DNA of 54,126 bases from Desulfamplus magnetovallimortis (lineage in GTDB: Bacteria > Desulfobacterota > Desulfobacteria > Desulfobacterales > Desulfobacteraceae): assembly GCF_900170035.1 (NCBI RefSeq), contig NZ_LT828548.1:1-54126 (forward strand). Reading direction: 5' to 3'. The notes beneath the pieces were generated by a model that saw only the letters and a program-made list of their open reading frames with translations, ran no database searches and was not told the origin of the DNA. A program made the position numbers and the translations under genes. How positions within the stretch are numbered: the stretch's first letter is position 1; every line of letters starts with the position of its first letter. Shown in pieces: positions 17,815 to 27,446 of this stretch.

Positions 17815-20091
17815 ATGATAGTTGTGGAAGAACATATAAGAGATAACGATTTTTTTGTCAAAGATATGCAGCAACATGCAGATGATGAAAACAAATCTGC
17901 CAAAGATAATCAACAACTGTTGCTTAAAGAGATTGGAGAACAGCTTCCCCTGGAAAATTACAGCCATCTGATTGAAATGTGTTGCCGGAAAAGCAGTGAT
18001 GGCAGTGATAATTTAATATTCAGGGCATTGAAGTTTGCCTATGAACACCATGCAGGTCAGGTCAGAAAATCAGGGGAACCATATATCAATCATCCCATTG
18101 CAGTGGCTGAAATTATTGCAGGTGATATGGGGCTAAAAGACCCTGAACTTATTGCCGCCACACTTCTGCATGACATTGTTGAAGATGTAATTTCTCTTAC
18201 TCCTGGCAGCATTGAAAAGCGTTTTGGAAAAAATGTTGCCAATTTTGTGGATGGTTGTACCAAGCTTAAAATGATGAGCCTTGATCAGAGTATTAATAAG
18301 GATATGACCTATCAGAAGCTTATCAGCATGGCAAGCCGAAATCCTGAGATACTGCTTATTAAAATTGCAGACAGAATCCACAACATGCAGACTATAGGTT
18401 TTTTGAAAGAGCACAAAAGGCAGAGAATTGCCCAGGAAACCATAGAAGTGTATGCCCCACTTGCTGAAAAATTGGGGCTTTTTTCTATCAAACGTAGATT
18501 GTTTGAACTTGCATTGCGTCACAGATTTCCCAAAAAAAGCAAACGCCTCCTTAGCATATTGAAGAATTTTGAAGCATCCGGTGAAATTGCAGAGATAAGG
18601 GCACAGATATACAGGGCTTGTCAGATATTACCATTTGATGTCAGTGTAACAGGTCGGCTTAAGAACCTTTATGCATTCTACTCTTCAAGAAAAAAGACCC
18701 TTGATATTCATACTGCTGAAAACCTTGTTGATTTTACAGTTATAATTGAAAGCTCTGATAAGCTGCACTGTTATAGTACTCTGGGAGTAATCAACACAAT
18801 TTTTTCTCCTGTACCTAAAAGTATCCGTGACTACATTGCCAACCCCAAAATAAATGGGTACAGAAGCCTTCATGTAAGAATTACATACAAGGATAAGCGT
18901 TATCTTATCAAGATCCGAACCTCTGAGATGGAGAGGGTTGCAAGGAGAGGATTGCTTCTTCATTGGGATGACAGGGATCAGATCCATGAATACCGTAAGG
19001 TTCTAATGGAAATTCTCAAAAGTATTGCAGAGTATGAAGGCTCACCTGTAACAAGAAAAGACATGATCGGTCAGTTGATTGAGGATGACAAGGTATTTGT
19101 CTATACCCCCCAGGGAGATATTCATTACCTGCCGGAAGGCAGCATTGTTCTTGATTTTGCCTACAAGGTACATACAACCCTTGGAGATCGCTGTCGATAT
19201 GCCATGGTTAACAAGCAGAAGGTAACTCCGGCATTTATTCTCGATGATGGGGATGAGGTGGAGATATTTACCTCTAACCGTTCAAGCGAAATAACAGCGG
19301 ATATTGAGGGAAAATGCAGGACTCCCAAGGCAAGGAGTGCTGTTAATAAAAAATTGCAGAAAAAAAGAGATCTCTATTCCCGAAACATTGGCAGGGATAT
19401 CATGACACAGGCAATGGATCGTTATGGTCTGGATGATCAGCTTTTTAAAAGCAGTGCGCTTTCAGATTTTTTGACATACAAGGGAATTGAGAACCTGGAG
19501 CAGTTCTTTACAAGTATTGGTCAGTTCCGGCTTATGCCTGGCGAGGTTCTGTGGGAAATTGCAGAGATACACCCCAGGATGAAAAAAAGCAGATCAACCT
19601 CTTCAGGGGGGGAAACAAAAAGATTTCTTCTATCCCTTTCTGAAATTGAGAGAGATGTCCATAAATTCTCACAATGCTGTAACCCTCTGCCGGGAATGGG
19701 GTTGTGTGTGGGGCTGTTAAGCATCAATGGAGTTTCACTTCATCGTTCCCACTGTGAAAAGTACAAGGAGAGAAGGGGCTTTTCTGAAGATAAAATTGTA
19801 GATGTTACATGGGACTTAAAAACTTCATGGAAGCGTGATCTTATATTCCATATTTTGATTAAAAAGATCTCTTTACGTCTTGTTATGGAACTTCTATCCA
19901 AAATATCACATGCCGGACATATCCACAGCATTAAGGAGTCCAAAATGAGAAAAGATATTTCGGTAAAGGTAAGTTTTCACAGTTTTGAGCAGTCCCGAAC
20001 TTTTTTTTCATGCTTTGAAAATGCAAATTATACGGTGGAGATTGTTGAGTATGGGAAAACTCTTTTTAATAATTCCTTCCTAAACTTTTAG
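17815..20091 (+). CDS. RelA/SpoT homologue with intact (p)ppGpp hydrolase and apparently inactive synthetase
   Basis: 758 residues. The HD hydrolase domain keeps the key motifs: HHAGQVRKSGEPYINHP, LLHDIVEDV and IKIADRIHNMQT. The synthetase domain keeps its scaffold (DYIANPKINGYRSLH) but loses catalytic residues: the segment normally D-[IL]-x-A-x-R reads NLVDFT, and the normal E-V-Q-I-R-T reads LIKIRT. TGS (DKVFVYTPQGDIHYLPEGS), a zinc-finger/helical region (CCNPLPGMGLCVG) and a C-terminal ACT domain follow. I infer a monofunctional hydrolase, like a SpoT without synthesis; a separate synthetase would be needed elsewhere. AAGGA abuts ATG 17815; GTG at 17824 has better spacing and may be the true start. 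Confidence 0.9.
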   Translation: MIVVEEHIRDNDFFVKDMQQHADDENKSAKDNQQLLLKEIGEQLPLENYSHLIEMCCRKSSDGSDNLIFRALKFAYEHHAGQVRKSGEPYINHPIAVAEIIAGDMGLKDPELIAATLLHDIVEDVISLTPGSIEKRFGKNVANFVDGCTKLKMMSLDQSINKDMTYQKLISMASRNPEILLIKIADRIHNMQTIGFLKEHKRQRIAQETIEVYAPLAEKLGLFSIKRRLFELALRHRFPKKSKRLLSILKNFEASGEIAEIRAQIYRACQILPFDVSVTGRLKNLYAFYSSRKKTLDIHTAENLVDFTVIIESSDKLHCYSTLGVINTIFSPVPKSIRDYIANPKINGYRSLHVRITYKDKRYLIKIRTSEMERVARRGLLLHWDDRDQIHEYRKVLMEILKSIAEYEGSPVTRKDMIGQLIEDDKVFVYTPQGDIHYLPEGSIVLDFAYKVHTTLGDRCRYAMVNKQKVTPAFILDDGDEVEIFTSNRSSEITADIEGKCRTPKARSAVNKKLQKKRDLYSRNIGRDIMTQAMDRYGLDDQLFKSSALSDFLTYKGIENLEQFFTSIGQFRLMPGEVLWEIAEIHPRMKKSRSTSSGGETKRFLLSLSEIERDVHKFSQCCNPLPGMGLCVGLLSINGVSLHRSHCEKYKERRGFSEDKIVDVTWDLKTSWKRDLIFHILIKKISLRLVMELLSKISHAGHIHSIKESKMRKDISVKVSFHSFEQSRTFFSCFENANYTVEIVEYGKTLFNNSFLNF

Positions 20092-20317: not shown

Positions 20318-22075
20318 CTATACATGTGAAGCCCATGCCAGATCAAACGCCTGATCATTTTCATTGAGGTTTGTGATGATAAGTGATGGAGTAATCCATG
20401 CCTGGTCATCAAACTCGTTTTTGTCGGCAATCTTGATTGTGGGGTAGGCTGTCTGACGTGCAATTTTTTTCACTGTCAGAAAACGTGTTCCATTTTCGCC
20501 TGATGGAATCTTGGTAAACGCAAGATGCAGTACATTGTTTCTCTGGGCGGCTTTCTGGTAATTTTCAAAATCTTCCATGTTGTACTGCTTTCCTGGCAGA
20601 ATTTCCATTCTGGCCACACCCCTTGTATCCATATCAAGGGAGACATAGTAACGGTGTTCGTCAAAATCTATCTCATATCCATCATACAGAGTATATACAT
20701 TGCCAAGAATGGTTATAAGTTTTTCAAAATTTTCGATTTTTCTTGCATATCTTTCGCCTTCCTCATTTTTACCCACATGGTGATAATCTGCCATAAAAAG
20801 GCAGTGTTCCGGCAGTAGTAAAAGTGCGTCCCTGTTAAACGCTTTCAATATGTATCTTGACATGATTTCACGTATCTTGGGAGCTTTGGTGGGCCTTCCT
20901 GAAACCAGAAAATATATTCCGTCAAGACTTTTTTCCCTTCTCCACTCATTGAGAAGAGAGTACTGTTTTCCAAAAAGAAGCTCCAGGAACTTGCCGAACT
21001 CTTTTTCAAGAAAACGGTCGCTGTCCCACCATTTCTCTTCATCATCTTCATGGCGGCTCTCTTTAAAGGTATCGGAAAAATACTCCCCTGCCTTTTTTTC
21101 GGAAAAGGACTCCTTTCTTTTAAGGGTTGTGGTGATGCCAAGGTCAGCATCTGCATAGGAACGCATAAGAAGGATGCTTGCATCGGTTGTCAGGCCTCCT
21201 ATGTCCACATGACATACCACAAAATTGAGGGCTTTTTTCCGGTCGCCTTCACGTCGTTTCTGGGAAAACAAGGTTTCAACCTCTTTTAGATCCGGAATTC
21301 TGTCTTTTTCGCTTGAAAGATCCCAGAAAGGCATCTGTTTAATCAGATTGAGAAAATATAGTTCACATGCCCCGCTTTCATCTGCTGAAATGTTTATAAA
21401 TGTCTTTTTCAGGCTTCTTAAGTTTGATGGAAGCATCTGTTTCCATTTTTTGTGTGTCAGAAGTTCCATACAGACAGAGTATATGTTTTCCCTGTAGCCG
21501 GCTCTTAAATTTTCGATGAAAAGATCCGGAACAGTGACTCTGATTTCGGTGATTACAGGAATTGCAGGGCCATTCCAGGGGCGACCCTCCCTTGGTTCTG
21601 TTATATATTTGAAGCTCTCTTCCAGTACCTTTTTAATGTAAAGACGAAATTGGGGGACATTTCCTTTGTAGGCTGCAAATTTGCCTGCAAATACAGCTTT
21701 GGCGCTTTTTACGATCTGGCTGCTTGCAACAGTTACATCCTCAAAATTTTCGATAAAGGCAAAATCCCTCTCATCACCGGATGGGGGATTTATAAACGCT
21801 GATGGAAAGCCTCCGCCTGCAATATCACCATCTCTGTAATGTACAACATATTTCCAGGTGTCTGTTATCTTTTCCCTTCCGTAGCAGCATGGCCAGCAAA
21901 GAACAGATGTTCTATATGAACCGAAATCAACAAAAAGAATGTACTCTTCACGATTATTGAGATCCCTTGGAGTTCTGCCCGCAATGGTCTCATAATAGAG
22001 GCGGTTGTCATCTTCAAGTTCCAGATGAAACTCGTTCTCTTCCTTTTTTTTGCGTTTGAAAAAATCAAAAATCAT
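20318..22075 (-). CDS. Hsp70/actin-like ATPase, SrfB-type
   Basis: 585 residues, cytosolic. The pattern of an Hsp70/actin-fold ATPase can be read: phosphate-1 loop YILFVDFGSYRTS (about 45-57), substrate-side GGGFPSAF, ITEIRVTVPDLF like the Hsp70 'vPa.f' strand, SADESGACELYFL at the place of 'EPtAAal', phosphate-2 VCHVDIGGLTTDASIL (about 287-302) and the adenosine motif FLVSGRPTKAPKIREI. The best match I can suggest is the SrfB family (shorter than the roughly 1000-residue enterobacterial protein). Its ATG overlaps the stop of the GTPase gene (ATGA), so the two are coupled. Third gene of a three-gene operon. Function unknown; inference: an ATP-driven partner of the GTPase. Confidence 0.7.
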   Translation of the reverse strand: MIFDFFKRKKKEENEFHLELEDDNRLYYETIAGRTPRDLNNREEYILFVDFGSYRTSVLCWPCCYGREKITDTWKYVVHYRDGDIAGGGFPSAFINPPSGDERDFAFIENFEDVTVASSQIVKSAKAVFAGKFAAYKGNVPQFRLYIKKVLEESFKYITEPREGRPWNGPAIPVITEIRVTVPDLFIENLRAGYRENIYSVCMELLTHKKWKQMLPSNLRSLKKTFINISADESGACELYFLNLIKQMPFWDLSSEKDRIPDLKEVETLFSQKRREGDRKKALNFVVCHVDIGGLTTDASILLMRSYADADLGITTTLKRKESFSEKKAGEYFSDTFKESRHEDDEEKWWDSDRFLEKEFGKFLELLFGKQYSLLNEWRREKSLDGIYFLVSGRPTKAPKIREIMSRYILKAFNRDALLLLPEHCLFMADYHHVGKNEEGERYARKIENFEKLITILGNVYTLYDGYEIDFDEHRYYVSLDMDTRGVARMEILPGKQYNMEDFENYQKAAQRNNVLHLAFTKIPSGENGTRFLTVKKIARQTAYPTIKIADKNEFDDQAWITPSLIITNLNENDQAFDLAWASHV

Positions 22076-23718
22076 AACGGATCTCCTTGAAACTCATAAC
22101 TGCTTTCGTTGAAGGTTTCTGTGGAGTTCACAGGTGTTGCGCTATAAAAATTGTGGCCTCCTTGGGATTCAGAAAATGGATTGTTTTCATGATTTTTATC
22201 TCTCCCTGAATCATTTATGTCTCCATTTTCAGATGGTTTCATTGATATTCCAAAGATGTCAACATCCCCGCGTATCAATGCGTTGGGAACGTAAAGTGCT
22301 GCTATATTCATTATTATATAGACAAGATCCTCTTCACGGGTGCTTATAAAGTTTTTTCCCTCGTGATCAAGGCGGTTTACAATATTTTTCCACATCACAT
22401 CTGCCATTGCCCTGCATCTGTCATCTTCATCAAAAAACTGGATAAGGTATTGATAAATGATTCCTGCCCAGAATCTTTGATGGTTATCCACAATTCCGTC
22501 TGTCTGGATGGAGATTTCGTTTTTAAAAAAGGTACGGATATCCCTGTAACGACCATTTATAATGGCCAGGCGAATCTTTTCCCTGACCTCTTTGACCTCG
22601 TCATAGCTCTCAATTTCATTTAGGCACTCATTGGCGGCTGTGAGGCACGATTCTGCTTCAACCATCCAGGGTTTCAGGAAAATGTTGTCAAGGGCATCCT
22701 GTATGTTGGAGTTCTGGCAGATCTCCTCGAGCAGTTTGCGAGACCAAGTGATACCGCCGTCAAGTTCAATGTTATATCGGATCTCATGGACATCTTTGTA
22801 ACGGCTTAAGTGTCTTATCCAGGAAGTGACATGGGGGCCTGGTTCACTGAAGGTTACAGGATAGGTTCGGTTGTATGGATTGATAAGCTGAATTGTGGTG
22901 TCAAAAGACTTATGACTTTTAAAATCAGCAGCAATATCTTTTTCAACATGTGTATTTCCGCAATAGCCCGATATGGCACTTCCACCCTGAAGGGAGAGTA
23001 CAAGCGGAAGTTTATTGCCGGAGTAGCTTGTTTTAAGAATCTCTCCATATTTTTTAAGAATTATATCCATTGGATGACCTGGCGGAATTGCCACCTTGTG
23101 CTGGAAACATGCCACAAGAATGCCAGGATATCTTGCAAGATTATGTATCAGGTTTCTCTGGAAGGTCTGGTGAAGTGTACGCTGTGCCTCCTGTGCATCT
23201 GCTCCCTCCTTGATACCTGGATATTCTATTATAGGCAGTGTCATCGGGGTCTCATCTTCCGGCAGCAGCACCTGTATCAGGTAATCATCCGGAACCGCTC
23301 CCATGGAGAGATCGTAAAGCCTTGCAAAATCATCTGCGGAAAGATCATTGTGCAGAATTTCTCCGGAGCTTATGGCAATTTGCCTTATTGTCAGACGTGC
23401 CACATTTGATGATGGTTCCACAAGGCATGGAACTGCTGTATTTTCTGATGTGTTGTGTACTTTTACGGCAAAAAGTTTTCTCAGATCATCATTGTCAAAA
23501 AGATCTAAAAGATAGCTTGTCTTGAATGACTTGTCAGTTCCTGTAATATGTACATAGACTGGCGAATCAACAGCCGGAACAGATGCAAGGCACTGTCTGC
23601 ACTGCTTGATGATAGGAGTTGTATTTACTGCATGGTCAGACGAGACATTAATAAGCCTGTTAACGATTTGTTCAATATTGTCTTTTAACCTAAGAATACG
23701 GTTTTCTTTCAGGTTCAT
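22072..23718 (-). CDS. Dynamin-like / SrfC-type GTPase
   Basis: 548 residues, no membrane segment. A P-loop is visible at YVHITGTDKSFKTSYLLDLF (about 57-76, G-x4-F-K-T), a candidate switch Thr in ENTAVPCLVEPS, and a G3-like IIEYPGIKEG (DxPG of dynamin-type GTPases with E for D). A long helical C-terminal region follows (about 330-490), then a polar, disordered tail rich in Asn/Ser/Glu. This arrangement fits dynamin-superfamily or SrfC-type proteins. It overlaps the ATPase gene by 4 bp and lies 170 bp after the membrane protein gene. The G4 motif is not obvious, so nucleotide specificity is uncertain. Confidence 0.6.
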   Translation of the reverse strand: MNLKENRILRLKDNIEQIVNRLINVSSDHAVNTTPIIKQCRQCLASVPAVDSPVYVHITGTDKSFKTSYLLDLFDNDDLRKLFAVKVHNTSENTAVPCLVEPSSNVARLTIRQIAISSGEILHNDLSADDFARLYDLSMGAVPDDYLIQVLLPEDETPMTLPIIEYPGIKEGADAQEAQRTLHQTFQRNLIHNLARYPGILVACFQHKVAIPPGHPMDIILKKYGEILKTSYSGNKLPLVLSLQGGSAISGYCGNTHVEKDIAADFKSHKSFDTTIQLINPYNRTYPVTFSEPGPHVTSWIRHLSRYKDVHEIRYNIELDGGITWSRKLLEEICQNSNIQDALDNIFLKPWMVEAESCLTAANECLNEIESYDEVKEVREKIRLAIINGRYRDIRTFFKNEISIQTDGIVDNHQRFWAGIIYQYLIQFFDEDDRCRAMADVMWKNIVNRLDHEGKNFISTREEDLVYIIMNIAALYVPNALIRGDVDIFGISMKPSENGDINDSGRDKNHENNPFSESQGGHNFYSATPVNSTETFNESSYEFQGDPL

Positions 23719-23835
23719 TTTTGGGGTATTACTCCTGACATTATTATCCCCAAAGCAGCCTGAACTTTGGGGAGATTTTTGTAAAACAGCGATGTTGATT
23801 TATAACGGCCATGGCAGACCCTTGTGCCACAACGA

Positions 23836-23885
23836 AGTATGAAGGTCTTTTTAAAACAGCCTTTTATTGAGACTTTCTAATAAAA
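23836..23885 (+). repeat. Family 3 hairpin repeat (GAAAGTC...GACTTTC)
   Basis: GAAGGTCTTTTTAAAACAGC then TTTTATTGAGACTTTCTAAT: inverted GAAgGTC/GACTTTC around a T-rich centre. It lies between the membrane-protein and GTPase genes of the cassette, ending at the stop codon of the upstream gene. It could act as a partial terminator or processing hairpin within the operon. Confidence 0.45.
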
Positions 23886-23888
23886 TAA

Positions 23889-25766
23889 TCAGTGGATTTC
23901 AACAATCTGATATCCACCATCCCCTGATTCCACAATTTTAAGTACCCTTTTGCCAATGGCAAACTCCATCCCCTTGATGTCATGGCGGTAGCTGAATGTT
24001 ATGCTGTCACTGTAAACCATAAAGGCAAAAGGAGTGAAAAGATTGATATCAGCTTTTTCAAATCTGACTGATTCACCAGAGGCCAGGGTGGCACGGAATC
24101 TGTCTGCTTCTCTGAAAATATTGACAATGCTACTTTTTCCAGGACTTATGTTGATGGCCTGGGTGGATGTACTGTCATCCCTTGAGAGCTGGACAAGAGA
24201 TGTGTTGAGCTGTATGGGGTCACGCTTCAGAGTTACACTGTTGTTCTTTTCAAAGGATGTTCTGGTTATTACATTAGAGAGGACAAGGGCTGTAAGAGGA
24301 TCATAGCACTGGATTCCATATTTACCCTTTGAATCTTCCATGAGAAGTTCCCTGTGCACTGCAACCGGAAAATCTCCTTTAAAAGGTTCCAGTTCAAGCT
24401 CATCAATTTTGCGGTCAATTACTTCCAGCTTAAATGTCTGTCCGATTTTTTCAGTAAAATAACCAATTGCATCACGGGTGAGATTCAAGGTTTTTTTGTT
24501 ATATTCATCAATCAGGTACCACTGAAATGTTTCATTGTCGCTTTTCTCCATTGCCATAAGTCTGCGGCTGACATCAGTTGGTATCAGTGTGGATTCTCCA
24601 CGCCTGAAGAAAGCTGCAAAATTGACCTTTCCGCTGCTGTTGCGCCTGACAAGCATGTACCAGTCAATGTCTTCAACAGGTTCATCCACCTTGAGAGGGG
24701 TAAATGTATAAACATCAGAAAGGAAATTTTTAAGACGAACGTTTATGTTTTCATTTTTTAGCATATCGGAAAAATTCTGGTTGTCCCTGATACGCTGATA
24801 ATCGTTATAAGAGACCATATTGTCTGTTAGAAACTGGTTTACAGCAGGAGGATCAACATTGAGATCCCCTACTTTAAAATAGAAAATGTTGCTTGAAAAA
24901 CCAGACTCTTCACATGAGTATATTCTGGAGAGCCTTCCAAACTCTGTATCTTCAAGTTTTGATCTGTAGCTGCTAATGGCTGCTTTGACCTGTTCGTTGT
25001 AGTTGAAATATACAAACAGTACAAGTCGTGTACCTCTGTAATTCTCACTGCTGTTGCTGTCTTTGTAAAAATCTTTGTTAATACAAGCAAGAGTATCACT
25101 TACATATTCAGGTTTTAGCAACTCCTTTGCAATAAGCTGGCGATCAACAACATCTGATGATAGCCATTCATAAACTTCAGGAAACATGGTATGGTAAAAC
25201 TTCATCTCTTCAGACTCTCTGCCGGGAAGCAGCTTACCCATGTTAAGGGATTTACCACTTATAAAATGCTTGTAGCCGTAATAGCCCATGCTCCCTATCA
25301 ATCCTGCAATGAGCAGAATTACAAGGAGTTTTAGCAGAATGCTCAACCCAGGTCCGCTTTTTTGAAGTTCTGTAAGAAGGTGTATTGCCCGTGATTGCCC
25401 TGTGGCGGCATTTCGATAGACAATATTGGCACCAAATGCAACTAAAGGTTTTTTCTTTTCTATTGATCTAAAAAATACCCATGATGACCCGATATTGTCA
25501 CCGCGTGTTATTCTGAGCTTGAGGTATTCAATGAACTCTTTTTTTTCACTTCCTGACAGTTTTGACATGGGTACAGGAAGCATTCCCGGCTCCAGTTGAA
25601 TTCTGCCATCCACATTAATTATTCTGACATCCAGATTGGTTGTGACGCTCTGATATCTTCTTACATCCTGAAACAGGCTGCATTCATCCGGTATAACAGC
25701 TTCAAAAACAAGAGGGTATTCCTGAATTTTGTTTACCGGCAATTCAAATATCTCAAAACGATTCAT
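23889..25766 (-). CDS. Single-span membrane protein, first gene of the SrfB/SrfC-like cassette
   Basis: 625 residues from ATG 25766 (AGGAG 7 nt upstream; the open frame extends two codons further to a TTG). Cytoplasmic N-terminal region of about 145 residues, one transmembrane helix (LLKLLVILLIAGLIGSMGYY, about 145-166) and a large C-terminal region of about 455 residues that would be extracytoplasmic if the N-terminus is inside. No signal peptide. I do not recognise a family. By position it may be the counterpart of SrfA-like genes in srfABC operons, but this is inference only. Confidence 0.65.
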   Translation of the reverse strand: MNRFEIFELPVNKIQEYPLVFEAVIPDECSLFQDVRRYQSVTTNLDVRIINVDGRIQLEPGMLPVPMSKLSGSEKKEFIEYLKLRITRGDNIGSSWVFFRSIEKKKPLVAFGANIVYRNAATGQSRAIHLLTELQKSGPGLSILLKLLVILLIAGLIGSMGYYGYKHFISGKSLNMGKLLPGRESEEMKFYHTMFPEVYEWLSSDVVDRQLIAKELLKPEYVSDTLACINKDFYKDSNSSENYRGTRLVLFVYFNYNEQVKAAISSYRSKLEDTEFGRLSRIYSCEESGFSSNIFYFKVGDLNVDPPAVNQFLTDNMVSYNDYQRIRDNQNFSDMLKNENINVRLKNFLSDVYTFTPLKVDEPVEDIDWYMLVRRNSSGKVNFAAFFRRGESTLIPTDVSRRLMAMEKSDNETFQWYLIDEYNKKTLNLTRDAIGYFTEKIGQTFKLEVIDRKIDELELEPFKGDFPVAVHRELLMEDSKGKYGIQCYDPLTALVLSNVITRTSFEKNNSVTLKRDPIQLNTSLVQLSRDDSTSTQAINISPGKSSIVNIFREADRFRATLASGESVRFEKADINLFTPFAFMVYSDSITFSYRHDIKGMEFAIGKRVLKIVESGDGGYQIVEIH

Positions 25767-26240: not shown

Positions 26241-27446
26241 GTGGGAAATATTTGTGTAGCTAAAAAATTTGGCAATATTACAGCAGATGCCGTTGTTGTG
26301 GGTGGAGGAATTGTTGGAACTTCAACTGCCTTTTGGCTTTCAAAGGCAGGCATGAAAGTTGTTTTGCTGGAGATGCGTGATGCTCTTTCATCCTTGACCA
26401 CAGCCGCAAGTGTGGAGTGTTTTCGTACCCAGTTCACTGAAAAATCAATGGCCGATCTTGCTCTTGAAAGTGTAGGCATGTTTGAAAATTTCGGTGAAGT
26501 TACCGGAATTCCGGATATTGATATTGGCATTACCCAGAGAGGATATCTATTTGTAACTGATAGTGCAGATATGATTCCTGATCTTGAAAAGGCAGTTGCC
26601 CGTTACCATGAGCTTGGGGTTAAGGACGCAGAGTTTCTTTCTGGTCAGGATCTTCATGGGCGGTTTCCTTTTCTTTCACCAGAATCCCTTGCAGCAACAT
26701 ACAATCAAAAGGATGGATGGCTTTCAACACATGAGGCAACCTATGGTTTTGCAAAGGGGAGTGCAAATGCAGATTTCTACACAAAAACAAAGGTGACAGA
26801 TATCGTTGTTGATGCACAAGGTGTTTCCCTTGTTGAAACGGATATGGGCAATATTCATACAAGGCTTGTGGTCAACTGTGCAGGACCCTTTGCAGGAAAT
26901 ATAGGCAGGATGGCAGGTCTTGAGATGCCATTAAGAACTGTTAGACGCCAGAAGTGCTATATCAAGGTTGATCCGGCACTTCTTCCGGAAAAAGCTCCGT
27001 TTATGGTGGATCTATTGAACCATTCATACTGGCGACCTGAAGCCGGTGGTCTTTTGTGTGCCTGGGTTGATCCTGATGAGCCTGATAGCGAACCCCGTGA
27101 AGATCTGCCAACGGATTGGGATTTTGCAGCAGAATCTATTCACAGGGTATCAAGACTCAATCCCTTTTTTGAAACAGTTGCAGATAAAATTGTGGCATCT
27201 GATATTGATGTTTCTGCAGGCATGTATGTTTACACTCCGGATGACAAGCCTGTTATCGGCCCTTCCGGTGAAGTTGAAGGTCTGCATCTAAATTGTGGTT
27301 ACTGGTGTGGTGTGATGATGTCTCCAGGAGCTGGAAAACGGGTGGCAGATATTGCTACAGGCAAAATGGATAACAGTGATAATCCTCTTCGCTATTCCCG
27401 TTTTGCAGAAGGAGTGGTTGAAAAGGGTGCTACATTTCTGAAATAA
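26241..27446 (+). CDS. FAD-dependent amino-acid oxidase/dehydrogenase (DAO family, sarcosine oxidase beta-like)
   Basis: 401 residues from a GTG with AAGGAG 7 nt upstream. The Rossmann FAD loop is AVVVGGGIVGTSTAFWLSKA (residues about 16-35) followed by VVLLE. The C-terminal part has the DAO signature TPDDKPVIGPSGEVEGL and NCGYWCGVMMSPGAGKRVAD. It resembles sarcosine-oxidase beta and glycine/D-amino-acid dehydrogenase subunits; the substrate is not deducible. No alpha/gamma/delta subunits or T-protein are adjacent, so it is probably a single-subunit enzyme. A 9-bp-stem hairpin lies downstream. Confidence 0.85.
   Translation: MGNICVAKKFGNITADAVVVGGGIVGTSTAFWLSKAGMKVVLLEMRDALSSLTTAASVECFRTQFTEKSMADLALESVGMFENFGEVTGIPDIDIGITQRGYLFVTDSADMIPDLEKAVARYHELGVKDAEFLSGQDLHGRFPFLSPESLAATYNQKDGWLSTHEATYGFAKGSANADFYTKTKVTDIVVDAQGVSLVETDMGNIHTRLVVNCAGPFAGNIGRMAGLEMPLRTVRRQKCYIKVDPALLPEKAPFMVDLLNHSYWRPEAGGLLCAWVDPDEPDSEPREDLPTDWDFAAESIHRVSRLNPFFETVADKIVASDIDVSAGMYVYTPDDKPVIGPSGEVEGLHLNCGYWCGVMMSPGAGKRVADIATGKMDNSDNPLRYSRFAEGVVEKGATFLK

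Follow-up and report, generated by a model that had tools for sequence, protein, structure and literature searches.

Among described bacterial systems, the closest to the locus reported here are the SrfABC gene sets, in which a protein with one hydrophobic segment, the ATPase SrfB, and the P-loop GTPase-like protein SrfC are encoded together. In two papers they bear labels such as "virulence factor" and "toxin," and one of the two describes their function as still unclear (PMC3608642, PMC6950479); SrfB and SrfC genes are also reported there beside ppkA and tagQ in host-associated Deltaproteobacteria (PMC3608642). We analyzed a window of 54,126 nucleotides from Desulfamplus magnetovallimortis (NZ_LT828548.1, contig 9 of a genome of 6.68 Mb) that carries a three-gene cassette encoding a single-span membrane protein (A), a predicted dynamin-like protein (C), and a putative actin/Hsp70-type ATPase (B). 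The trio is conserved and co-inherited, and is most simply read as a counterpart of SrfABC.

The sequence-only reading of this window had proposed that co-occurrence of the three genes be checked across other genomes. B and C are found in an identical set of 30 of 116 relatives, and A in 27 of those 30 plus one further genome (G006, 52% complete). The three B-holding genomes without A (G002, G008, G009) are drafts at 63–85% completeness; a contig end falls within C in G002 and G008, and G009 has a different gene upstream of C. These counts exclude weak matches to C in G011, G025, and G034 (E-values of 0.05–0.09), a 26-position fragment of C in G035 (E 6.6e-8), and a weak match to A in G087 (E 0.001). 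The G035 fragment is a lone 25-residue stretch (L149:8657-8731) with 72% identity; the surrounding 18 kb holds nothing convincingly related to A or B, and the stretch may be all that is left of a former cassette.

Gene order is A-C-B wherever the assembly permits it to be read. In four genomes (G003, G004, G005, G007) A lies on a contig apart from C and B, so the trio is retained even without linkage; in the A tree, which includes the copies from G003, G004, and G007, the unlinked copies cluster with linked copies of the same genus, which indicates that A moved and was not lost. Across five genera the frames are open, with identities to the window of 69–89% for B, 53–72% for C, and 42–65% for A, and in the four pairs with unsaturated synonymous divergence (dS), nonsynonymous divergence (dN) is 0.005–0.134 against a dS of 0.12–1.21. 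The locus is therefore more than a chance arrangement, and the trio is under purifying selection. B evolves slowest and A fastest in five of five pairs, and the A, B, and C trees agree in their main groups. An all-against-all comparison of proteins around the window and 29 other loci (identity of at least 35%, E 1e-20) found only two flank families common to different genera, one of them at 36% identity, which indicates that the cassette moves independently of its surroundings. The clearest exception to the differing flanks is a gene shared by genera g14 and g1 at 59–67% identity (L042:9334-10101 versus L059:12784-13656 and L061:12459-13256).

Distribution is narrow. Matches occur in 32 of 389 genomes of the class and five of 148 genera, all under the family label (f1) of the window itself, and a scan of genome contigs recovered 19 loci assigned to Desulfamplus, Desulfocicer vacuolatum, Desulfobacula, Desulfobacterium, Desulfobacter, and two broader labels. 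The NCBI family of these named genera is Desulfobacteraceae, apart from Desulfobacterium (Desulfobacteriaceae). The expected spread across Desulfobacterota was thus not borne out: in the sets searched, B is confined to one family of Desulfobacterales, the B profile having been run on the class and not phylum-wide.

B carries phosphate-1 (DFGSYRT), phosphate-2 (VDIGGLTTD), and adenosine (SGRPT) motifs that are conserved throughout the alignment of 17 B proteins. The two phosphate motifs share order and register with the Hsp70/actin superfamily (DnaK, MreB, FtsA), being aligned with SrfB, Hsp70, MreB, and an FtsA-like protein; the adenosine region is in register with SrfB only. B departs from that superfamily in its adenosine motif, GRP[ST], and has no family-level match within it. 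GRP[ST] is present in 17/17 B and 10/10 SrfB proteins and in 0/14 Hsp70 and 0/14 MreB proteins, and the pattern GG[AGST][ASTG] occurs in 0/17 B proteins. Against a profile of ten SrfB proteins, B gave an E-value of 2.3e-4 (probability 44). By region, phosphate-2 scored 38.6 (best of 60 column shuffles, 15.3) and the adenosine region 21.3 (best shuffle, 20.4); phosphate-1, in register, was weak by score (three of the 60 reached it), and no match was seen for the TVP region (29 of 60). Full-profile scores were 43.8 for SrfB, 32.7 for Hsp70, 27.7 for MreB, and 27.5 for the FtsA-like profile, in a comparison where profile depths differ and the last profile is a single sequence from the window's own genome. 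SrfB (PF07520), which we take to be an actin-clan family, is the sole member of that clan listed for B in Pfam, far below the cut-off. From the motifs, the region scores, and the four-family comparison, membership of B in the Hsp70/actin fold class, as first proposed from its motifs, is well supported, and kinship to SrfB is likely, if not proven.

Two B genes of the Desulfamplus group (L059:8983-10824 and L062:7767-9620) carry a low-complexity insert of about 29–33 residues just before phosphate-2. In a separate comparison of Hsp70-family proteins, G075, a genome of the same order, has 22 matches, several of them consecutive on one contig (C25), and the other 20 genomes compared have 2–10.

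C had been called a P-loop GTPase, with GTDKSFKT and EYPG as its motifs. Both are present and the predicted fold is dynamin-like, but GTDKSFKT is not an ordinary P-loop: phenylalanine replaces the second glycine of GxxxxGK[ST], giving GxxxxFKT, throughout the 18 aligned C proteins. GxxxxFK[ST] and EYPG are kept in all 18, residues G60, K66, and T67 and those of EYPG are invariant, and the G4 motif [NT]KxD was found in none. The best structural matches of a low-confidence model are to the dynamin superfamily (mitofusin, Foldseek E 1.2e-5), and the model resembles mitofusin and bacterial dynamin-like proteins in setting a G-like domain between N-terminal helices and a C-terminal helix, here of 51 residues. 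A dynamin-like fold class is supported by this prediction; C differs from the superfamily in lacking canonical G1, G3, and G4 motifs, and it matched none of the Pfam dynamin families.

These substitutions raise the possibility that C no longer handles GTP and serves purely as a structural scaffold, so that an actin-like ATPase would be paired with a dynamin-shaped membrane clamp. Among seven SrfC proteins, by comparison, GxxxxGK[ST] and DFPG are present in 7/7, and 6/7 have TKxD at the corresponding position. Such invariance at the altered G1 and EYPG is nonetheless unexpected for an unused site, and we hold this account, which is compatible with the one we prefer, to be tentative and short of even odds.

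A has one hydrophobic segment, at residues 140–158, and all 18 A proteins in the alignment likewise have a single segment. Flanking charges favor an inside N-terminus in 13 of the 18, are tied in four (including the A of the window), and oppose it in one, so that the N-terminal 135 or so residues are probably cytoplasmic and the C-terminal 455 or so periplasmic. Searches gave no accepted family match and no sequence relative for A, in keeping with its original description as a single-span protein outside known families, and its structural model (predicted local distance difference test 67, predicted template modeling score 0.35) had no fold match.

The cassette is not SrfABC by membership, because B and C fail to match the Pfam models and its genes are arranged A-C-B rather than A-B-C. 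PF07520 gave the window's B 11.3 bits against a cut-off of 27.1 (best E among 17 members, 0.081), and PF10139 (SrfC) matched none of 18 C members at E up to 10. B and C are also much shorter than their counterparts (585 versus 1023–1184 and 548 versus 876–970 amino acids). In the phylum, SrfB was above the cut-off in 17 of 395 genomes; SrfC follows srfB in seven of nine loci inspected, and in seven of nine a protein with a hydrophobic segment (7/7) is encoded upstream of srfB. We label the latter SrfA by place, no Pfam family naming it, and A has no sequence or profile likeness to it. None of the 116 relatives yielded a true SrfB in a search with no positive-control genome; since the same model passed its cut-off in the phylum set, we take this absence, with caution, as real. 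By look, the trio is a compact, diverged analogue of SrfABC. The Srf link drawn in the sequence-only reading is supported for B, is weak for C, which shares with SrfC one short motif past the G domain (DGG...R..L..IC, a score reached in 0/60 shuffles), and was not seen for A.

Could the likeness have arisen separately, with an ATPase and a dynamin-like protein joined to an anchor independently of SrfABC and GRP[ST] convergent? The different gene order, the sub-threshold score of B, and the want of convincing profile matches between C and SrfC or between A and the SrfA-position protein would all fit. The position of SrfB as the nearest to B of the four families compared, with a common variant of the adenosine motif, the shared C/SrfC motif, and the recurrence of the same three protein kinds point the other way, and we consider an independent origin unlikely.

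We favor instead, with a probability of roughly 0.55, the view that the cassette encodes a three-part inner-membrane nucleoside triphosphatase assembly, a compact and diverged counterpart of SrfABC that has been inherited vertically. As parts of this view we infer the physical complex, the topology of A, the nucleotide used, and the envelope role. A would serve as the anchor, with its short N-terminal domain on the cytoplasmic side and the long C-terminal part in the periplasm. C would lie on or near the cytoplasmic face and, given its altered P-loop, may bind nucleotide in an unusual way or act as a non-hydrolyzing scaffold. B is the most likely source of a nucleotide cycle that would assemble, disassemble, or switch the C-A complex, allowing the cell to act on its own envelope from inside; the likeliest role is thus envelope work from the cytoplasmic side. 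A bolder proposal, which we regard as rather improbable, would place the cassette and SrfABC as two branches within a single undescribed class of bacterial envelope machine, composed of a one-span anchor that extends into the periplasm, a dynamin-like clamp, and an actin/Hsp70-like ATPase as its driver; in the cassette branch the clamp would have lost its GTP chemistry, leaving all the work to the ATPase.

The layout of the locus is given in Table 1, and agrees with the three minus-strand reading frames and C/B overlap first described. A and C are separated by 170 bp, within which an inverted repeat lacking a T run is possibly a site of RNA processing or attenuation. The neighboring RelA/SpoT-type gene converges on the end of B, and an oxidoreductase gene diverges from A.

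Table 1. The cassette and adjoining features in the window
Feature	Coordinates	Strand	Description
Gene A	23889..25766 (ATG at 25766)	minus	625 aa; single-span membrane protein
Gene C	22072..23718	minus	548 aa; predicted dynamin-like protein, non-canonical G1 GTDKSFKT and G3 EYPG
Gene B	20318..22075	minus	585 aa; putative Hsp70/actin-type ATPase, SrfB-like
ATGA	22072..22075	minus	4-bp overlap of C stop and B start
Inverted repeat	23748-23772	minus	perfect 8-bp repeat CCCCAAAG / CTTTGGGG, 9-nt loop
RelA/SpoT-type gene	17815-20091	plus	HD, RelA_SpoT, and TGS domains
Oxidoreductase gene	26241-27446	plus	FAD (flavin adenine dinucleotide)-dependent, DAO family

A defense or export role had also been suggested, and our searches gave no support to it or to a link with mobile elements. 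Bacterial dynamins can protect membranes during phage attack, and a role against phage or in some other conflict, with the dynamin-like protein sealing or disrupting the membrane, would be in line with this and with the patchy distribution within some genera (e.g., g14). There was, however, no PADLOC match; B was absent from the phage and plasmid records, and B and C from the viral contigs, that were searched; the cassette is near-universal and vertical in several genera, with slow evolution of B; and the flanking genes checked (a five-protein window set including two flanks, and another set of nine) look metabolic or regulatory, all of which makes defense improbable. Least probable of all is an accessory or effector operon of type VI secretion, a role proposed for SrfBC in host-associated Deltaproteobacteria, where the genes are reported near ppkA and tagQ (PMC3608642), given that VipB/TssC occurs in 13 of the 30 genomes with the cassette and in 30 of the 86 without it (Fisher p 0.51, with related genomes each counted singly) and that no ppkA/tagQ-type neighbor was found among the flanks checked.

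The trio fails membership of both SrfABC and the canonical GTPases, yet its parts are of the same three kinds as those of SrfABC. The pairing of an actin-like ATPase with a dynamin-fold protein whose P-loop is non-canonical yet invariant is, to our knowledge, unusual in its own right. If the cassette is indeed a diverged counterpart in environmental sulfate reducers, it would argue for a cell-intrinsic job of such trios, and these organisms may provide a non-pathogen setting in which the job of SrfABC-type systems can be found.
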